Of a DNA stretch of 64,000 bases, positions 1 through 52,909 are shown piece by piece. Origin of the DNA: Lachnospiraceae bacterium (GTDB taxonomy: Bacteria; Bacillota; Clostridia; Lachnospirales; Lachnospiraceae); contig JAILAF010000013.1 of assembly GCA_024681775.1 (NCBI GenBank), forward strand, positions 1-64,000. The letters are read 5' to 3'. Positions within the stretch are counted from its first letter, which is position 1. Every line of letters starts with the position of its first letter. The translations under genes were made by a program, and so were the position numbers. The notes under the pieces were generated by a model. That model worked only from the letters and a program-made list of their open reading frames with translations. It had not been told where the DNA came from and ran no database searches.

Positions 1-1119
1 CTGAAACTGAAATCCTACGGGAAATGGTTTGCCCTCTCCGGAAGTGTGCTCATGGGGGTAGGGCTGCTGCTCATCCGGACTTCCTATCTGCAGCTTCTGG
101 GATCTTCCAACCCCGGCAAGGTGGAAGCTGCTATTCCCACGGCCTTTTATCTGTATGTGGTGTTTACGGCGATACTTTTCCTGACATCAGCGGCGTTTGC
201 GTTGCTGCTTCCCAAGCCGCCCGCAGACAGTCGATGCGAGATGGAGGCCGGGTATAAGCTGTTTTTGATGTTCCTGCCCTTTGCCATGCTTTGTTTCGTC
301 TTTTCCTACCTGCCGCTCTACGGATGGCGCTATGCCTTTTTTGAGTACACGGCAGGAAGTGACCTCAGCATGGATAAGTTCGTGGGATTCCACTGGTTCA
401 CCACACTGCTTTCCAATGAGGCGACCAGAGCGGATATTCTCCGCGTTCTGCGCAATACTCTGGCCATGAGCGGTCTGGGAATCCTCACCGGCTGGCTGCC
501 CATCGCCTTTGCCATTTTTCTCAATGAGATCAAAAATTCCCGTTTCCGCCGGATCATCCAGACGGTGACCACCATCCCCAATTTCATTTCCTGGGTTCTG
601 GTGTATGCCATCGCCCTGGCAATATTTTCCACCGACGGATTCATCAATACCATGACCGGCGGTGATGTGAACTATCTGATGAACTCGTCTCATATGTGGC
701 TGAAGATGTTACTCTGGGGCACCTGGAAGGGCATCGGATGGAGTGCCATCATCTATATCGCCGGGATCTCCGGCATCGACCAACAGCTCTATGAAGCGGC
801 CACGGTGGACGGAGCAGGAAGGTTTCAAAGGATGTGGCATATCACGGTCCCGGGACTTCTGCCGACTTACTTTGTCATGCTGCTCATGTCCATTGCAGGC
901 ATTCTCAGCAACGGAATGGATCAGTACCTGGTCTTTTCCAATGCCAGAAACAAGGAGACCATTGAGGTCCTGGACCTTTATGTGTACAACCTGGGTATCC
1001 AGAACGGCATCATCCCCCTTTCCACCGTAGTGGGTATGGTGAAATCCATCGTCAGTGTGATCCTGCTCTTCGGGGCCAACCGGTTCTCCAAGGCGGTCCG
1101 CGGAGAGTCCATCGTATAG
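1..1119 (+). CDS. Carbohydrate ABC transporter permease (LplB-like), 5' end truncated by window
   Basis: Frame open from base 1; multi-TM protein with inner-membrane permease EAA-like motif (YEAATVDGAGRFQRMWHITVPGL); followed by second permease and binding protein. Confidence 0.85.
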   Translation: MKLKSYGKWFALSGSVLMGVGLLLIRTSYLQLLGSSNPGKVEAAIPTAFYLYVVFTAILFLTSAAFALLLPKPPADSRCEMEAGYKLFLMFLPFAMLCFVFSYLPLYGWRYAFFEYTAGSDLSMDKFVGFHWFTTLLSNEATRADILRVLRNTLAMSGLGILTGWLPIAFAIFLNEIKNSRFRRIIQTVTTIPNFISWVLVYAIALAIFSTDGFINTMTGGDVNYLMNSSHMWLKMLLWGTWKGIGWSAIIYIAGISGIDQQLYEAATVDGAGRFQRMWHITVPGLLPTYFVMLLMSIAGILSNGMDQYLVFSNARNKETIEVLDLYVYNLGIQNGIIPLSTVVGMVKSIVSVILLFGANRFSKAVRGESIV

Positions 1120-1128
1120 GAGGAAACT

Positions 1129-2094
1129 ATGGAAGCATCGAAAAGAACTCCAAAGCCCGGGCCCGGGAAAAAAACAGCGGCCGGAATGGGAGTGGTGGGC
1201 CGGAAAACGCCGGGAGATGTGATCTTTGATCTCATCAACCATTGCTTCTTTGGCATTTTTTCCCTTCTGTGCGCCTTCCCGTTTTACTTTCTGTTCATCA
1301 ACACCATTTCCGACAATGATCTGGTGCAGAAGGGACAGATCAAACTGCTCCCCCGGGGGATCAATCTCAGCAACTATCTGGCCATGCTCAATGTGTCCGA
1401 TCTGGGACAGGCCTTTCTGGTGACCATCGCCAGGACGGTTCTGGGCACGGGCCTCATGGTGGCAGCCTCCGGACTGGTGGGGTACCTGGTCACCAAGAAG
1501 GAGATGTGGCACAGAAAATTCTGGTACCGTTTTCTGGTGATCACCATGTACTTTAACGCGGGCACCATTCCCTGGTACCTGAACATGTCCATGCTGGGGC
1601 TCACCAACCATTTTGCGGCATATATCATTCCCGCTGTGGTGGCGCCCTATAACATCATTCTGGTGAAGACCTACATCGAGTCCATCCCTTCGGAGCTGGA
1701 GGAGAGTGCGCTCATCGACGGAGCGGGCTTCTTTACCGTTTTTACCCGGATCATCTGGCCGCTGTGTAAACCCATCCTCGCCACCATCGCTATTTTCGGC
1801 GCGGTGGGCCACTGGAATTCCTACACGGATTCCCTCATTCTGATGCAGAGCGCTCCGGAGCTGAAGACGGTGCAGCATCGTCTGTTCGAGTATCTGAATC
1901 AGACCACGAATCTGGCCTCCGTCATGAGCTCGGGCGGCGGTATGCTGGCTTCGGCAGTGGCGCGGCAGGCCATGAATGCCAAGGTTTTGAAATATACCAT
2001 CTCCATGGTGACAGTGATTCCCATCCTCGTGGTGTATCCCTTCATGAACCGGTATTTTGAGAAAGGGATCATGCTGGGAGCCGTGAAGGGATGA
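1129..2094 (+). CDS. Carbohydrate ABC transporter permease (YtcP/AraQ-like)
   Basis: EAA-like loop ELEESALIDGAGFFTVFTRIIWPLCKPILATIAIF; ends FEKGIMLGAVKG typical of this family. Confidence 0.88.
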   Translation: MEASKRTPKPGPGKKTAAGMGVVGRKTPGDVIFDLINHCFFGIFSLLCAFPFYFLFINTISDNDLVQKGQIKLLPRGINLSNYLAMLNVSDLGQAFLVTIARTVLGTGLMVAASGLVGYLVTKKEMWHRKFWYRFLVITMYFNAGTIPWYLNMSMLGLTNHFAAYIIPAVVAPYNIILVKTYIESIPSELEESALIDGAGFFTVFTRIIWPLCKPILATIAIFGAVGHWNSYTDSLILMQSAPELKTVQHRLFEYLNQTTNLASVMSSGGGMLASAVARQAMNAKVLKYTISMVTVIPILVVYPFMNRYFEKGIMLGAVKG

Positions 2095-2148
2095 TCGAAA
2101 GAAAAAAGGATCCGGCACACGGATCCGTATATCGCAGGGAGGTTTTTT

Positions 2149-3912
2149 ATGAAAAAAAGTAAGATCGCCGGAAGACTGACTGCACTGATGCTCAGCGCAG
2201 CGGTGAGCATTTCGGCACTGACCGGATGCGGGAGTGAGGTGCCCGCAGGAAGCGAAACGGCAGCGGGAGCGGAATCGGGAGAAGCCCCCATCACCCTCAC
2301 CGTATTCAGTCAACTGGCCAATTTCAGCGGCCCTGTCGGGGGCTGGGGCGGACAGCTCATGCTGGATAAATTCAATGTGATCCTGAACATCGTTCCCGAT
2401 ACCAACGGTGCGATCCAGACCCGGATGGAGCAGGGCGATCTGGGCGATATCGTGGTCTTTGGAAGCGACGGTGCCAACTATACGGACAGTATCCGAAACG
2501 GCCTGCTGCTGGACTGGAATGAGGACGATATCCTCTCCGATTACGGCCCTTACATCAAAGAGCATTTTGCCAAGGCGCTGGAGAAAAATGCCGGGATCGT
2601 TCCCCTGGATGAGGATGGTAACCCGCTGACGGAGCCCGGGGTCGTACACGGCTTCGGTCACAATATCGGTAATTCCGACCGGGATGGCATCGATTCCATT
2701 CTCTACACCTGGGATCTGCGCTGGGATCTCTATCAGCAGCTGGGATATCCCGAGGTGAACGAGCTGGAGGATTTCATTCCGCTGTTTGAGGCGATGAAGG
2801 AAATCTGCCCGGAGGATGAAAACGGCAAGCCCACCTATGCTTTTTACCTCTGGCCCGACTGGGACGGAAACATGGTGATGTATGTAAAGTCCATGGCTTC
2901 CGCTTATTACGGATATGATGAGTTTGGCATCGGACTCTATGATACCGAGACCGGAGCATTTTATGACTGCCTGGACAAAAACGGCCCCTATGTCAGATGC
3001 CTGCGTTTCCTGAACAAGCTCTATCAGAAGGGGCTCATTGATCCCGACTCCATGACCTCCACCTATGACATCATGACGGAGAAGATGAAGGCGGGCGGCG
3101 TGTTCTGTTCCATATTTAATTACGCCGGCAGCGATGTGTATAATACGGAGCAGCACATTCAGGAGAACAAGCTGATGCTCAGCTTTAATCCCAAGCAGGG
3201 ACACCCGATCGTCTATGGTCTTTCTCCTTTGGGAGGGAACCGGATCTGGACCATCGGAGCAAAAACAGAGTATCCGGAGCTGTGCATGGAGATCATCAAC
3301 TATCTGGCTACGCCGGAGGGCGCCATGACCATGTGGTACGGTCCCAGGGGCGTATGCTGGGATTACGATACGGATGGGAATACTGTATTTACCGCTCTCG
3401 GAAAGTCCGCAAACCTGGATCCCAAGGGGACATCCATGGAATCCGCAGGATACAGCGGCACCTACCAGGACGGCATCATTCAGATCAACAACACCACCTG
3501 GTCCGAAAAGGCCATCAATCCGGACAGCAACGGTGAAGCTTTTGACAGCAAGCTCTGGAAGAGTGAGATCTCGGATCCGGTGAACGAGGTGGAAAAGGCC
3601 TGGAGAGAGTATTCCGGCAGTATCAGCGAGTTTGACTATATCAGCAATCATGTGGATTACCGAATGAGCCCCGGATCCACCTATTCCGAGGGAAAGCGCT
3701 CGGATGACCTGGAGATCCGCTGGAATGAGGTGACTACCAATTGTATCGTTCCGGGTAGCTGGAATGCGATCTACGCATCCTCGGATGAGGAGTTTGAAAG
3801 CGTCCTGAACAACATGATCGGTCAGGCCAAGGCACACGGTTATGACGAGTGTGTCAAGTGGTGCAAGTCGGAAGCGGCGCTCCGGAAGGCCGCAGAAGAC
3901 GCCTTGAAGTGA
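2149..3912 (+). CDS. Extracellular solute-binding lipoprotein of carbohydrate ABC transporter
   Basis: Signal peptide with lipobox (ALTGCGSE); adjacent to two permeases; RBS gggaggt. Confidence 0.85.
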   Translation: MKKSKIAGRLTALMLSAAVSISALTGCGSEVPAGSETAAGAESGEAPITLTVFSQLANFSGPVGGWGGQLMLDKFNVILNIVPDTNGAIQTRMEQGDLGDIVVFGSDGANYTDSIRNGLLLDWNEDDILSDYGPYIKEHFAKALEKNAGIVPLDEDGNPLTEPGVVHGFGHNIGNSDRDGIDSILYTWDLRWDLYQQLGYPEVNELEDFIPLFEAMKEICPEDENGKPTYAFYLWPDWDGNMVMYVKSMASAYYGYDEFGIGLYDTETGAFYDCLDKNGPYVRCLRFLNKLYQKGLIDPDSMTSTYDIMTEKMKAGGVFCSIFNYAGSDVYNTEQHIQENKLMLSFNPKQGHPIVYGLSPLGGNRIWTIGAKTEYPELCMEIINYLATPEGAMTMWYGPRGVCWDYDTDGNTVFTALGKSANLDPKGTSMESAGYSGTYQDGIIQINNTTWSEKAINPDSNGEAFDSKLWKSEISDPVNEVEKAWREYSGSISEFDYISNHVDYRMSPGSTYSEGKRSDDLEIRWNEVTTNCIVPGSWNAIYASSDEEFESVLNNMIGQAKAHGYDECVKWCKSEAALRKAAEDALK

Positions 3913-4104
3913 TTCGAAAACAGTAAGGGCCGCTCCCCTAAGGAACGGTCCTTACATATAGGAGATACCGGAAAACTACGGGAAACGGCTTTGGAGTTGA
4001 CGGCTGTTTTCTTTGCGATATACTATTTTTTATGAGCAAAAAATACGCGCTCCGGCCTGCTCTTTGGGAAGTCCCGGAACGGTATATGCAAAGGAAACTT
4101 CCTG

Positions 4105-5496
4105 ATGAAACTGATCCACGAAGCCTCCGAATTTCGGAAGGCAAAACTCAATTCCACCAGGGTCATCACCCTGGGCTTTCTCGGAGCGATCCTCATCGGT
4201 GCGCTCCTTCTCATGCTCCCCATTGCAACGGTCCCCGGGGAGGAGACGGATTTCCTGACAGCACTTTTTACCGCCACCACATCCATCTGTGTGACAGGTC
4301 TGGTGGTGGTGGATACCTACGCCCACTGGACCTTCTTCGGGCAGCTCCTGATCCTGATCCTGGTGCAGATCGGCGGCTTCGGTGTCATCACCCTGTATTC
4401 CATGGGCATGCTGGCACTGGGGAAGCGCTTTTCCTTACGGACCAGGCTCCTTATCATGGATTATTACAATCTGGATTCCATCGAAGGACTTCTTTCCTTT
4501 ATGATTCGGGTGGTGAAGGGCACCCTCATCGCAGAAGGCATCGGCGCCCTTCTCTACTGTTTTTGCTTTATCCCCCGCTTCGGATTTTTTAAGGGGCTCT
4601 GGGCTGCGATCTTTAACGCCGTCTCCGCCTTCTGTAACGCGGGGATGGATGTGATGGGCCCCGACTCCCTGATCTATTATCAGAAAAATATCCCTGTCAA
4701 TGTCATCACCATGGTCCTCATCGTCCTGGGCGGACTGGGATATGTGGTATGGTTCGATATGGCAGCAGGCCTGCGCAGCTGCAGGGAGAAGGGCTTCGGG
4801 CCCCGGATCTTTTTGAGGCGTCTCTCCGAGCAGACGAAGCTGGTGCTGATCCTGACAGCGGTGTTTCTGGTCTCCGGGACGGTGCTGGTGGCCCTCTTTG
4901 AATGGAACAATCCTGCCACCATCGGGAACCTGGATACGGGGTCCAAGATCCTGGCCAGCCTCTTTCAGTCCGTGACCTTCCGGACGGCGGGCTTTGCCAC
5001 GGTGCCCCAGGAGGGGCTTACCACTCCTACCGTCATTGCAGGATGCCTGTACATGCTCATCGGCGGCTCCCCCGTGGGCACTGCCGGCGGTATCAAGACG
5101 GTGACCTTCTTTGTGGTCTTCCTGAACATCTATTCCTTCATCAAGGACCGGGATGAGATGGTGGTCTTCGGCAGGAGCATCTCGCCGAAACTGATCAACA
5201 AGGCCAATGCCATCGTGACCTTTAACGTGGGATTGACGCTGATCCTGGTGCTGGCCCTCATCTATGCGGAACAGGTACCTGCCGCATCGGCGGCCTATGA
5301 GATGTTCAGTGCAACGGGCACCGTGGGGCTTTCCAGAGGACTCACATCCTCCCTGCACACGGCGGGGCGGATCCTGGTGATGATCGGCATGTATGCCGGG
5401 CGCATCGGCCCTATTTCCATGGCACTCTTTTTCAGTACTGCGCGGCCGGATCAAAACAGTATCCGCCATGCGAAGGGACATTTTATTGTGGGTTGA
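4105..5496 (+). CDS. TrkH/KtrB family potassium uptake membrane subunit
   Basis: TSICVTGL, FNAVSAFCNAGMD, GGSPVGTAGGIKT filter-like motifs; next gene is TrkA/KtrA. Confidence 0.92.
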   Translation: MKLIHEASEFRKAKLNSTRVITLGFLGAILIGALLLMLPIATVPGEETDFLTALFTATTSICVTGLVVVDTYAHWTFFGQLLILILVQIGGFGVITLYSMGMLALGKRFSLRTRLLIMDYYNLDSIEGLLSFMIRVVKGTLIAEGIGALLYCFCFIPRFGFFKGLWAAIFNAVSAFCNAGMDVMGPDSLIYYQKNIPVNVITMVLIVLGGLGYVVWFDMAAGLRSCREKGFGPRIFLRRLSEQTKLVLILTAVFLVSGTVLVALFEWNNPATIGNLDTGSKILASLFQSVTFRTAGFATVPQEGLTTPTVIAGCLYMLIGGSPVGTAGGIKTVTFFVVFLNIYSFIKDRDEMVVFGRSISPKLINKANAIVTFNVGLTLILVLALIYAEQVPAASAAYEMFSATGTVGLSRGLTSSLHTAGRILVMIGMYAGRIGPISMALFFSTARPDQNSIRHAKGHFIVG

Positions 5497-5519
5497 TCCC
5501 GTGAGGGTAAGGAGGAGAT

Positions 5520-6161
5520 ATGAAATCATTTGTGATCTTTGGTATGGGGAAATTCGGTCAGGCCGTTGCGGACCGCCTCATTGAGGGCGGCGCCGATGTG
5601 ATGGTGGTGGACAATGACGAGGAAGTCATCAACCAGTATTCCGCCAAAGCCACCGCAGCCATCCTGGCTGATCTGACAGACCCGTCAGCGATCAAGGCGC
5701 TGGGCATTGCGGATATGGACTGCGCCGTGGTGGCCATGGCCATGAGTCTGGAAGCCAGCATCATGTGCGTTATGGTGTCCAAGGAGTGTGGCATCCCTTA
5801 CGTCACTGCCAAGGCAGGCAGCGACCGTATGGGGAAGGTGTTAAAGCGCATCGGCGCGGATCAGGTGATCTTCCCCGAGGAGGAGAGCGGCGTCCGCACC
5901 GCCCGTCAGCTGCTGTCCAGCAATTTCCTGGAGTTTTTCGACATCAATGAGGATCTGGCCATCGTGGAGATGCTTCCTAAGCCGGAGTGGGTAGGCAAAT
6001 CCCTCATAGAGCTGAAGCTCCGCCAGTCGTGCGGCGCCAATGTCATCGCCCTGCGGGACGGCGTCATCGAGGAGTATGTGGATCCCAACAGGCCCCTGGA
6101 TAAGGACGTGCCCCTGGTCATCATGGTTCACAGGAAAAATCTGTCTAAATTAGACAAATAA
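5520..6161 (+). CDS. TrkA/KtrA family potassium uptake regulatory protein (RCK)
   Basis: N-terminal Rossmann motif VIFGMGKFGQAVADRL plus RCK_C domain. Confidence 0.92.
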   Translation: MKSFVIFGMGKFGQAVADRLIEGGADVMVVDNDEEVINQYSAKATAAILADLTDPSAIKALGIADMDCAVVAMAMSLEASIMCVMVSKECGIPYVTAKAGSDRMGKVLKRIGADQVIFPEEESGVRTARQLLSSNFLEFFDINEDLAIVEMLPKPEWVGKSLIELKLRQSCGANVIALRDGVIEEYVDPNRPLDKDVPLVIMVHRKNLSKLDK

Positions 6162-8110: not shown

Positions 8111-8185
8111 CGGGGTGTGGCTCAGCTTGGTTAGAGCGCCGTCTTAGGGAGGCGGAGGTCGCGAGTTCGAATCCCGCCACTCCGA
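8111..8185 (+). tRNA. tRNA-Pro (anticodon AGG)
   Basis: Cloverleaf: acceptor CGGGGTG/CACTCCG, D-arm GCTC/GAGC, anticodon stem CCGTC/GGCGG with loop TTAGGGA, T-loop TTCGAAT; CCA not encoded. Confidence 0.9.
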
Positions 8186-9212: not shown

Positions 9213-10568
9213 TCAGGAGACCGCATTTTCCTCTTCCGGGTCCGGGGTCTGCACCTTCCGCAGCCGCTTTGCCATGCTGATGATCAGAGGGATCACCATG
9301 ACGGTCCAGGCGATGGGCTCTGCCCAGATGATTCCCATGTAATGGAGTACGGGGGTCAGCAGGAAGGCCACCAGGACCTTGCACAGGAGCTCCAAAAAGC
9401 TGGATGCCACAGGGGTCACATGGTCCCCCAGTCCCTGGAGACCGTTGCGGAGGATGGTGATGGTGGGTACCAGCATGTAGAAGATGGTATCCACCTTCTG
9501 ATACAGGACGGCGGTATAGAGGATCTCCGGATCCTTCGTGCCGGAGATGGCCGTGATGAGGGAGGGTGCGATGGTATAGCTCATGAGCAGGTCCACGAGA
9601 GCCCAGAGATAGGACAGGAGCAGCGCATCCCGCAGGCCCTTCCGGATCCGGTCCAGTCGTCCCGCACCGTAATTTTGTCCGCAGTAGGTGGCCATGGTGG
9701 CCCCCAGAACGGAGAAGGGCATCATATACAGGTTCGTCAGCTTCCGGGTGGCGGTGTGTGCCACGATGATGGGGGTTTCGAAGGAGTTGATGGCAGTCTG
9801 CAGGGCGACGGTGCCGAAGGCCACCAGACTGCTCATAAGCCCCATGGAGAGGCCGCCGCCGACCAGCTGGGAAGCCATCTCCCTGTCCGGGATCATTTCC
9901 CGTGGGGTGAATACAAACATGGGATAGCGGATCCGCAGATAGAGAAAGCACAGGGCCGCAGAGATGGCCTGGGCCAGAACGGTCGCCAAAGCGGCGCCCC
10001 GGACCCCGTAACGGAGAGGCCCCACAAAGAGCAGATCCAGCCCCACGTTCAGCACGGCGGAGAGGATGAGGAAGAGCAAAGGGGTCAGAGAATCCCCCAC
10101 AGCCCTTAAGTTGGAGGCGAGCACATTGTACAGGACACAGAAGATCAGTCCTGCCAGCAGGGTGCCTAAGTATGCGGAAGCATCGGGCCGGAGGGCGTCG
10201 GAGACATTCAGGATGTCCAGCAGGACATGCAGTCCCAGAAGGGACGGCAGCGTCATGACGAGGGCTGCTACGGTGCCCAGCAGGAGCCCGGAGGCAAAGC
10301 ACCGGCGCACCAGATCCCGGCGGTTCATGCCGAAGTACCTGGCGGTCAGGATGGAAAATCCACCGGCGAGACCGATGAGAAAACCGCTGAAAAGCTCATG
10401 GAGGGTGCTGACGCTGCCCACCGCGGCCAGGGCGTCCGTTCCGAGCATGGAGCCGACGATGCGGGTGTCCGTCAGATTGTAGGCCAGCTGGAAGAGCCTT
10501 CCGATGAGCACTGGGATCGCAAATTTTAACATGACCAGGGCGGGAGAGCCCTTGGTGAGATCGTTCAT
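9213..10568 (-). CDS. MATE family efflux transporter
   Basis: 12-TM protein beginning MNDLTKGSPALVMLKFAIPVLIGRLFQLAYNLTDTRIVGSMLG. Confidence 0.93.
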   Translation of the reverse strand: MNDLTKGSPALVMLKFAIPVLIGRLFQLAYNLTDTRIVGSMLGTDALAAVGSVSTLHELFSGFLIGLAGGFSILTARYFGMNRRDLVRRCFASGLLLGTVAALVMTLPSLLGLHVLLDILNVSDALRPDASAYLGTLLAGLIFCVLYNVLASNLRAVGDSLTPLLFLILSAVLNVGLDLLFVGPLRYGVRGAALATVLAQAISAALCFLYLRIRYPMFVFTPREMIPDREMASQLVGGGLSMGLMSSLVAFGTVALQTAINSFETPIIVAHTATRKLTNLYMMPFSVLGATMATYCGQNYGAGRLDRIRKGLRDALLLSYLWALVDLLMSYTIAPSLITAISGTKDPEILYTAVLYQKVDTIFYMLVPTITILRNGLQGLGDHVTPVASSFLELLCKVLVAFLLTPVLHYMGIIWAEPIAWTVMVIPLIISMAKRLRKVQTPDPEEENAVS

Positions 10569-10596
10569 GGAGTTCCTTTCTTAATGCACATAACGA

Positions 10597-10770
10597 TACT
10601 AGTGCTGCGATTCTTAAATAACTGGACCGAATGCTTGCCTGCTTGCCCGATAGCACGTCCCCGAAAGCCTCAGCGTAGCCCGCTACGCCTACGTTTTCGG
10701 AAACGCACTCTCAAGCAAGCATTCGTCGCATTAGTCCAGTTATTTTTGCGATCGCCGCACTAGCGAGTAT
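10597..10770. repeat. Long imperfect palindromic element in divergent intergenic region
   Basis: CTAGTGC..GCGAT..AAATAACTGGAC..CGAATGCTTGC..TTG on the left is mirrored on the right; central GCGTAG-ccc-GCTACGC hairpin. Confidence 0.8.
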
Positions 10771-10871
10771 AAATATGCGGAAAACAATCGTCAAGGAAAT
10801 TTCTTGTGTATATTTATGCGTTAATGTGCTAAAATGGTAACGCACGAAAAATGTTTCTTTAAGGAGGAGTT

Positions 10872-12401
10872 ATGGGAATTCAACTGGTTTTGGGAATTGT
10901 GATCTTGCTGTACCTGGCCATGATGATCCTCATCGGTGTGGTCTTTTCCAAGGGAAATGACGACGCAGGGGATTTCTATCTGGGCGGGCGTAAGCTGGGA
11001 CCTCTGGTGGCTGCCATGAGCGCCGAGGCTTCCGACATGAGCAGCTGGCTGCTGCTGGGCATCCCCGGCGTGGCTTATCTCTCCGGTCTGGCGGATGCGT
11101 CCTGGACCATCATCGGTCTGGCCATCGGCACCTATCTGAACTGGCTCTTTGTGGCGGCAAAGCTGCGCAGATACACCGCGAAGCTGGGCTCCATCACGCT
11201 GCCGGAGTATTTTGCCGCCAGATACAAGGATCGGAAGAATGTGATCACCCTGGTGTCCGCCGTTGTGATCGTGATCTTCTTCATCCCCTATGTGGCTTCC
11301 GGGTTTGCTGCCTGCGGCAAGCTCTTTAATACGCTCTTCGGCATTGACTACCTCTTTGCCATGATCGTCAGTGCCATCATCATCGCGCTGTACTGCTCCC
11401 TGGGCGGTTTTAAGGCCGTCTGTATGACGGACCTGGTCCAGAGCATTGCCATGAGCGTCTCCCTGGTGGTGGTCATTGTCTTCGGTGTCCACACCGCAGG
11501 AGGATTCAACGCAGTCATTGACAATGCAAAATCCCTTCCCGGCTTTCTGTCCATGGTGCAGACCCATGTGGCGAGTACGGGAGAAGCGGCGCCTTACGGC
11601 ATCCTTACCATCTGCTCCACTCTCGCATGGGGCTTCGGTTACTTCGGTATGCCGCATATTCTGGTGCGTTTTATGGCCATCGAGGATGAGAAAAAGATCG
11701 GCCTCTCCAGAAGAGTGGCTTCCATCTGGGTGGTATTTGCCATGTTTGTTGCGCTCTTCATCGGCTTTATCGGCCTCGCCATGAGCAACGGCGGCTTCAT
11801 TGAGAAGCTGGAGGGCAGCGGCAATGCGGAGCGCGTCATCATCCACATTTCCAATCTCATGAGCACCCATGGCATTTTTGCAGCCATCATCGCCGGCGTC
11901 ATCCTGTCCGGTATCCTGGCAGCTACCATGTCCACCGCGGACTCCCAGCTCCTGGCATCCGCATCCGCCATTTCCGCGGATCTGATCCAGAGCTTCGGCG
12001 GCAAAAAGCTGAAGGATGAGACCCAGGTCAAGGTGGCCAAGATCGCCGTGGTCGTCATCTCCATCCTGGCCATCGTCATTGCAAGAGATCCGGATTCTTC
12101 CGTGTTCAAGATCGTGTCCTTCGCCTGGGCAGGCTTTGGTGCTGCCTTCGGCCCCGTGGTGTTGCTGAGCCTCTTCTGGTCCCGTTCCAATCTGAAGGGT
12201 GCCATGGCCGGCATGATCACCGGCGGCGTGATGATCTTCGTATGGAAGTTCGGCATCTCCAAGCTGGGCGGCGCTTTCGCCATCTATGAGCTGCTTCCCG
12301 CATTTGTGCTGGCCCTCATCGTGAATGTGGTGGTGAGCCTCCTCACCGCAGCCCCCGATCAGGAGACTGTGGATACCTTTAACGAGGTCACGAAGGGCTG
12401 A
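10872..12401 (+). CDS. putP: Sodium/proline symporter
   Basis: SSS family; DFYLGGRKLGPLVAAMSAEASDMSSWLLLGIPGVAYLSGL; RBS aaggagg. Confidence 0.92.
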   Translation: MGIQLVLGIVILLYLAMMILIGVVFSKGNDDAGDFYLGGRKLGPLVAAMSAEASDMSSWLLLGIPGVAYLSGLADASWTIIGLAIGTYLNWLFVAAKLRRYTAKLGSITLPEYFAARYKDRKNVITLVSAVVIVIFFIPYVASGFAACGKLFNTLFGIDYLFAMIVSAIIIALYCSLGGFKAVCMTDLVQSIAMSVSLVVVIVFGVHTAGGFNAVIDNAKSLPGFLSMVQTHVASTGEAAPYGILTICSTLAWGFGYFGMPHILVRFMAIEDEKKIGLSRRVASIWVVFAMFVALFIGFIGLAMSNGGFIEKLEGSGNAERVIIHISNLMSTHGIFAAIIAGVILSGILAATMSTADSQLLASASAISADLIQSFGGKKLKDETQVKVAKIAVVVISILAIVIARDPDSSVFKIVSFAWAGFGAAFGPVVLLSLFWSRSNLKGAMAGMITGGVMIFVWKFGISKLGGAFAIYELLPAFVLALIVNVVVSLLTAAPDQETVDTFNEVTKG

Positions 12402-49341: not shown

Positions 49342-49379
49342 TCGAAACAATTCGCCAAAGCAAGAGATAGGTAGAAAGA

Positions 49380-49414
49380 AAGCTCCGGCAGATCTGTGAT
49401 CTGCCGGAGCTTTT
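49380..49414. terminator. Terminator after DUF4214 gene A
   Basis: AAGCTCCGGCAGATctgtgATCTGCCGGAGCTTTT. Confidence 0.85.
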
Positions 49415-52769: not shown

Positions 52770-52805
52770 TGCCGGGATTCCGGCCGAGAATACTGAAATA
52801 ATGCA

Positions 52806-52848
52806 AAAAAGCTCCGGCAGATTCTCAAATCTGCCGGAACTTTTTTGC
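52806..52848. terminator. Terminator after DUF4214 gene B
   Basis: AAAAGCTCCGGCAGATtctcaaATCTGCCGGAACTTTTTT, same stem as copy A terminator. Confidence 0.88.
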
Positions 52849-52909
52849 AAATGCTCGAAAAAATGTCTTGCAAAATGCACTTTAATGCGTCAATATTTTA
52901 CCATACCAA

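Follow-up and report, generated by a model that had tools for sequence, protein, structure and literature searches.

A hairpin element inserted between a MATE transporter gene and putP in a Lachnospiraceae bacterium: a probable IS630-type MITE with a conserved core

The insertion between the MATE and symporter genes

The window, the whole stretch of 64,000 nucleotides that was analysed, comes from a gut bacterium of the Lachnospiraceae (contig JAILAF010000013.1). Between a gene for a MATE-family transporter and a divergent gene for a sodium:solute symporter, we identified a near-palindromic element with a body of 159 bp, or 163 bp including the TA on either side, and a GC content of 52% (Table 1). 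An earlier note, made from the letters alone, had described an interrupted, non-coding palindrome at 10597-10770 between MATE and putP with a GCGTAG/CTACGC hairpin at its centre. The palindrome and its central hairpin are indeed present, and Pfam confirmed the flanking genes; the outermost ATAC/GTAT, which had been counted as part of the palindrome, is host DNA that already exists in the empty site ATACTAGCGAGTAT of the sister genome G003. As RNA, 10580-10790 folds at -80.8 kcal/mol. The 200 dinucleotide shuffles of it gave -48.1 +/- 3.8 kcal/mol (z = -8.7), and not one of them was as stable. Within the 159 bp there is no open reading frame of at least 90 amino acids and no transposase gene, and a search for promoters inside the element gave nothing convincing. 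The window element matched no Rfam family: the 64-kb stretch had no match at the gathering threshold, 10500-10900 had none up to E = 5, and a scan of one relative returned a single 26-bit overlap at chance level. Elsewhere in the window lie a tRNA gene (8111-8185, plus strand) and two terminator-like hairpins (49379-49413 and 52802-52849), 3.4 kb apart, which have AAAGCTCCGGCAGAT in common.

Table 1. Position of the inserted element, its parts and the neighbouring genes in the window
Feature	Coordinates	Strand	Basis or remark
MATE-family transporter gene	9213..10568	-	Pfam PF01554, 6e-35; start codon 31 bp from left TA
Left copy of duplicated target TA (C-TA-G)	10600..10601		G003 empty-site comparison
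Left terminal inverted repeat TAGTGCTGCGATTCTTAAATAACTGGACC	10600..10628	+	21/29 identity with IS630 copy ends L090, L150
Mobile element body (probable MITE)	10602..10760		Fold, empty-site comparison, covariance model R1 (177 bits on +, 92 bits on -)
Conserved core hairpin, class I, with conserved internal loops	10634..10728	-	Minus strand is the better fold
Apical stem GCGTAG/CTACGC, segment of highest conservation	10673..10688	-	
Right terminal inverted repeat TAGTGCGGCGATCGCAAAAATAACTGGACT	10733..10762	-	One additional A relative to consensus
Right copy of duplicated target TA	10761..10762		G003 empty-site comparison
Predicted MATE promoter, sigma-70-like, TTGACG-17-TATACT	10766..10794	-	Insertion at expected start site
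Sodium:solute symporter gene (SSF/PutP-like)	10872..12401	+	Pfam PF00474, 8e-89

The genome of G003, a sister species of the same genus, keeps the MATE-putP order and lacks the element, and its flanks are 94.3% (1102 bp) and 95.1% (1242 bp) identical to those of the window. Its homologous locus is an unoccupied CTAG, the kind of empty site that the earlier note had proposed to look for: it reads AACGATACTAGCGAGTATAA, compared with AACGATAC-TA-[159 bp]-TA-GCGAGTATAA in the window, and the TA of the CTAG site is doubled by the insertion. The simplest reading is that the element was inserted here after the two species split, with precise loss in G003 as the alternative; G003 holds a copy of its own at another locus (L006). 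Among the copies with flanks, 43 of 48 lie at C-TA-G, against a background in the same DNA of 23 CTAG among 3113 NTAN. Because three copies have bases that differ between their two sides (for example TTAG/CTAG and CTAG/CTAA), the duplicated unit is taken to be TA, and a 4-bp duplication of CTAG is less likely. Sixteen of 60 copies sit exactly on a TAG stop codon according to mechanical ORF calls; since the element starts with G after the TA, its insertion regenerates the stop.

The hexamers TTGACG and TATACT of the predicted MATE promoter are also present in the empty-site sequence of G003, and the right TA of the insertion lies about 4 bases downstream of the -10 box, where the transcript is expected to start. 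Since the insertion is at the predicted start site, the leader of the MATE mRNA would consist of nearly the whole minus-strand hairpin and not of about 30 nt. We therefore predict that the MATE mRNA should begin with the element hairpin, and the MATE gene may be affected by such a leader. In operon-like settings, the better-folding strand of related copies is antisense to the genes by 30 to 10 (p = 0.002), a ratio that runs against the expectation of a helpful mRNA hairpin and suggests that the better-folding strand is costly in mRNA. The gene neighbourhoods of the copies had no consistent pattern.

Terminal repeats, transposases and copies among relatives

IS630 elements insert at TA with CTAG preferred (PMC2170065), a preference for which that paper cites Tenzen & Ohtsubo 1991. 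We found IS630-family transposase genes (PF13358) in a complete element of 1290 bp from the genus of the window (L150) and in other Lachnospiraceae (L122, L125 and L126), and all four are bounded by TAGTATA..TTAA.TAACT.GACT, the end type that matches the element described here. A metagenome-assembled genome (MAG) of the Atopobiaceae has three contigs on which the beginning of an IS630 transposase gene follows an end in exact agreement with the search pattern of the short element, and one of these ends (L090) is identical to copies of the short element at 25-26 of 29 bases. These contigs (L090, L099 and L102) show a multi-copy IS630 element at contig ends in a member of the Actinomycetota, and the near-identity of its ends with those from Lachnospiraceae may reflect recent transfer or contamination of the MAG. 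Because many of our sources are MAGs, claims that rest on a single genome, such as the Atopobiaceae, may suffer from contamination.

The left end of the window copy agrees with the IS630 ends at 21 of 29 bases, compared with 25-26 of 29 for commoner copies, and its outermost 12 bp are unlike the commonest end class. Other end classes fit other IS630 subgroups (23/29 for G647; the first 21 nt identical between L255 and L228). For copies ending in TAAGGAACTGT or TATTACTCCGGCGG (L207, L221, L225, L230, L233, L235 and L266), no matching insertion sequence was found. Two candidates for autonomous relatives, L114 2652-4035 and the 3378-bp L091 element, were discarded on finding that they contain unrelated genes.

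Given that IS630 transposase genes are bounded by matching terminal repeats, we infer that the palindrome is a miniature inverted-repeat element (MITE) that IS630 transposases mobilise in trans. As in the IS630/Tc1-mariner family, the target TA is duplicated and CTAG is preferred. The terminal inverted repeats are akin to those of IS630, the body of 159 bp is short and lacks a transposase gene, and the copies are dispersed, the last through its relatives since its own genome has one. We put the probability that it is a non-autonomous element of this kind at about 0.93. A transposase encoded elsewhere would recognise the inverted ends of about 29 bp and move the element by cut and paste into a TA within CTAG, doubling the TA. 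A search of the window's own genome for an IS630 transposase gave no match. On present evidence, this and the single copy imply that the window copy is not mobile there now; it is probably stranded, or else the assembly is incomplete.

The copy number that the earlier note had asked about came out in two ways: a search of the genome of the window (G000) found no further copy beyond the one described, and many dispersed relatives were found elsewhere. Among 40 relatives searched, one genome (G020) has the element in about ten places, and some of these copies are identical to one another at separate loci. The exact end pattern occurs in 81 stretches of public genomes, mainly MAGs of rumen Lachnospiraceae. 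Raw matches numbered 88 in G040 and 31 in G041, with both strands and fragments counted, and G040 often has copies of 75-150 bp with large internal deletions and both ends intact. A covariance model built from 12 copies found members in 79 of 397 Lachnospiraceae genomes and in 72 of 334 genera, nearly all of them 158-165 nt long. In the two large genome scans 7 candidates per genome were scored, the E-values of the model are rough, and related sequences inflate every count. A single-copy sequence with neither relatives nor covariation would have spoken against the proposal of the note; the element is single in its own genome, yet it has many relatives and clear covariation.

In viral contigs the end pattern had 0 matches, the class II core described below 0 and the class I core one, and no match was found in phages. 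L282 (IMGVR_UViG_3300012677_000087, 1-5938) is a circular mobile element of 5.9 kb with a 76-bp terminal overlap and three consecutive genes for large serine recombinases; a copy of the hairpin MITE spans its contig ends, and it is a possible vehicle for transfer between genomes. Two variants of 214 bp (L041:1627-1840 and L096:4992-5205) carry an additional stem of about 50 nt at the apex of the hairpin. In L075, L080, L081, L101 and L119, elements stand end to end with one common TA, one copy having used the terminal CTAG of its neighbour as its insertion site.

The folded core and its strand

The middle of the element falls into two classes. The class I core reads CTTGYCTR...GATNGCAC...AAAAGCCTCRRCGTAGCCCGCTACGCCTRCGTTTT...TGCACNCTCGA...ATYCTGCG, and the class II core reads CATCTGCTGCGTTGTCGTC...CCTCCGCCTTGCAG. 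Class II also occurs in two more families of the phylum and, over about 62 nt at 80-82% identity, in Streptomyces plasmids. Related elements lie at 81 places in 49 Streptomyces records, and in several of these copies the core is the centre of a palindrome of about 160 bp with very different ends, for example CTAGGGGGTGTCGTTCGGATCATG and AGACCGGCCGGCAATTGGGG. The outer arms vary between elements yet pair within each of them (0.83 for an element's own arms compared with 0.54 when arms are swapped between elements). The comparison thus points to a folded middle that has been conserved from Lachnospiraceae to Streptomyces and to ends that have changed many times, for which either end swapping or co-evolution with transposases could account.

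Covariation was examined in 35 class I members, taken in the orientation complementary to the window plus strand. Standard pairs occupy 94.1% of the cells, and compensatory changes occur at 51 of 59 pairs. The covariation score is 0.556, compared with 0.08-0.14 for slid partners, and 0 of 500 shuffles reached it. Where the plus strand seems to have a C.A/A.C mismatch, the minus strand has a conserved tandem U.G/G.U. Over sequences with less than 70% identity, A.C is commoner than G.U on the window plus strand, with 34 against 9 informative pairs (p = 0.0002), and over the stems the bias of non-standard pairs ranges from p = 0.03 to 0.0002 depending on the redundancy filter. Of the two strands, the minus strand gives the better fold in every member (81 of 81), including all 25 with less than 70% mutual identity; base composition alone reproduces 8.3 of the 17.9 kcal/mol strand difference, roughly half. 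It is shown statistically that the minus strand is the strand selected to fold, and the strong covariation comes with a strand preference. DNA folding parameters favour the same strand in 80 of 81 members, so that RNA and single-stranded DNA are not separable on this basis. The complement of the window plus strand is probably a strand-specific hairpin of one or the other; most likely the selected strand would fold as RNA when the element is transcribed.

Long palindromes are subject to correction by template switching, and matching of the arms by such switching or by gene conversion at the DNA level could produce covariation without any selected structure. In keeping with this, an element's own arms pair no worse in their outer part (0.83) than in the core (0.79). 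However, homogenisation of this kind would remove mismatched internal loops and fixed wobbles, which are conserved across end classes and phyla, and it would not lead one strand to have more G.U than A.C pairs; we regard it as unlikely. Much less probable still is that the sequence is of the REP type or terminates MATE and putP in both directions, in spite of the intergenic location and of the hairpin at 10673-10688, which has a T-run on the plus strand. REP/BIME units, which are associated with RAYT, are short hairpins of 20-40 nt without target duplication, and a 163-bp element with a TA duplication does not belong to them on either length or duplication. A terminator of the flanking genes is ruled out as well, because the genes are divergent and need no terminator between them and because the sequence is an insertion with an empty site and IS630-type ends. 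The earlier note had offered a MITE/REP-like element or a structured ncRNA. Of this, the MITE stands on the TA duplication, the empty site, the dispersed copies and the IS630 repeats, and a structured nucleic acid on the covariation and strand preference; REP falls on length, on the TA duplication and on ends of the DDE-transposase type.

It is harder to decide whether the core hairpin has its own specific function as structured RNA or as a single-stranded DNA signal, for instance as a regulatory RNA or a site where a protein binds, in which case the MITE would be a vehicle with borrowed ends and the core would not be its by-product. The loops are conserved while ends and stems diverge, the core is present with differing ends in Lachnospiraceae, two other families of the phylum and Streptomyces, the length is nearly constant at about 160 bp, and the tandem wobble pairs are conserved on one strand. 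On the other hand, there is no Rfam match and no consistent gene neighbourhood, and a selfish element could equally need a fixed structure, so that we consider this idea possible, with the odds leaning against it. The fuller version, that a core of about 60-95 nt is a strand-specific folded RNA (or single-stranded DNA) motif with its own function, spread over at least two phyla in MITEs of about 160 bp whose ends were re-matched to different transposases while loops and length stayed fixed, we hold tentatively, at a little less than even odds.

Known elements and the meaning of the family

MITEs of the IS630 type are a well-known kind of element, and RUP is one of several. The RUP of Streptococcus pneumoniae is an AT-rich non-coding repeat of 107 bp with IS630-Spn1 ends, a target duplication and a tight fold, and it has been proposed to move in trans (PMC3049150). 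It resembles the window family in its IS630-type terminal repeats, target duplication and paired-end fold. However, RUP has a high AT content and is seldom found beyond S. pneumoniae and S. mitis, whereas the window family measures about 160 bp at 52% GC and occurs in dozens of genera, with the core kept while the ends change; with 163 bp, 52% GC and a Lachnospiraceae host, the window element is set apart from RUP by description. BOX, also from S. pneumoniae, resembles the window family as an interspersed repeat whose RNA structure is strong and whose terminal repeats pair (PMC3049150), but it is a modular boxA-boxB-boxC array of variable length, and the window element has one hairpin and a fixed length. 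ERIC is likewise a palindromic MITE, and can change mRNA stability (PMC10969869); its hosts are different, and the literature examined does not describe exchangeable ends around a conserved core for it. IS630/ISY100 has the same target (TA/CTAG), TA duplication and type of end as the window element, but is autonomous, about 1.3 kb long, with a transposase gene and no hairpin core, and elements of this kind are the presumed source of transposase (PMC2170065).

The Correia element (NEMIS) of Neisseria, compared here by description, is a MITE that lies beside genes like the window element, although it contains an IHF site as well as promoters. Once transcribed it folds, and RNase III cuts or binds the RNA (PMC10969869; PMC2649163). 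By analogy, the folded core could be a double-stranded RNA on which RNase III or another widespread host factor acts, and this would limit damage to the genes that are hit. The folding results show a strand-specific, nearly continuous helix; any action of RNase III on the window element is a guess, and we consider the proposal rather more doubtful than not. The outer arms of the hairpin would track the ends of whichever IS630 subgroup is available, and selection would maintain the core of about 60-95 nt, its fixed internal loops and a total near 160 bp. No published description of this hairpin MITE family was found in the literature searched, whose partial coverage makes this weak evidence of novelty, and the family is apparently undescribed.

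In conclusion, the family is unusual in joining changing ends and a constant length to a strand-specific folded core that crosses phyla. MITEs are usually seen as decaying remnants that retain just the ends required by the transposase. Here the picture is inverted, in that the ends vary and what dozens of genera from at least two phyla have conserved is a non-coding middle. The conservation of the core, the near-constant length and the covarying stems therefore point to selection on a folded nucleic acid inside the parasite, and the sequences of the family offer a ready test system for a selected fold. The covariance model could also give a name to many unannotated intergenic repeats in gut Lachnospiraceae and Streptomyces.
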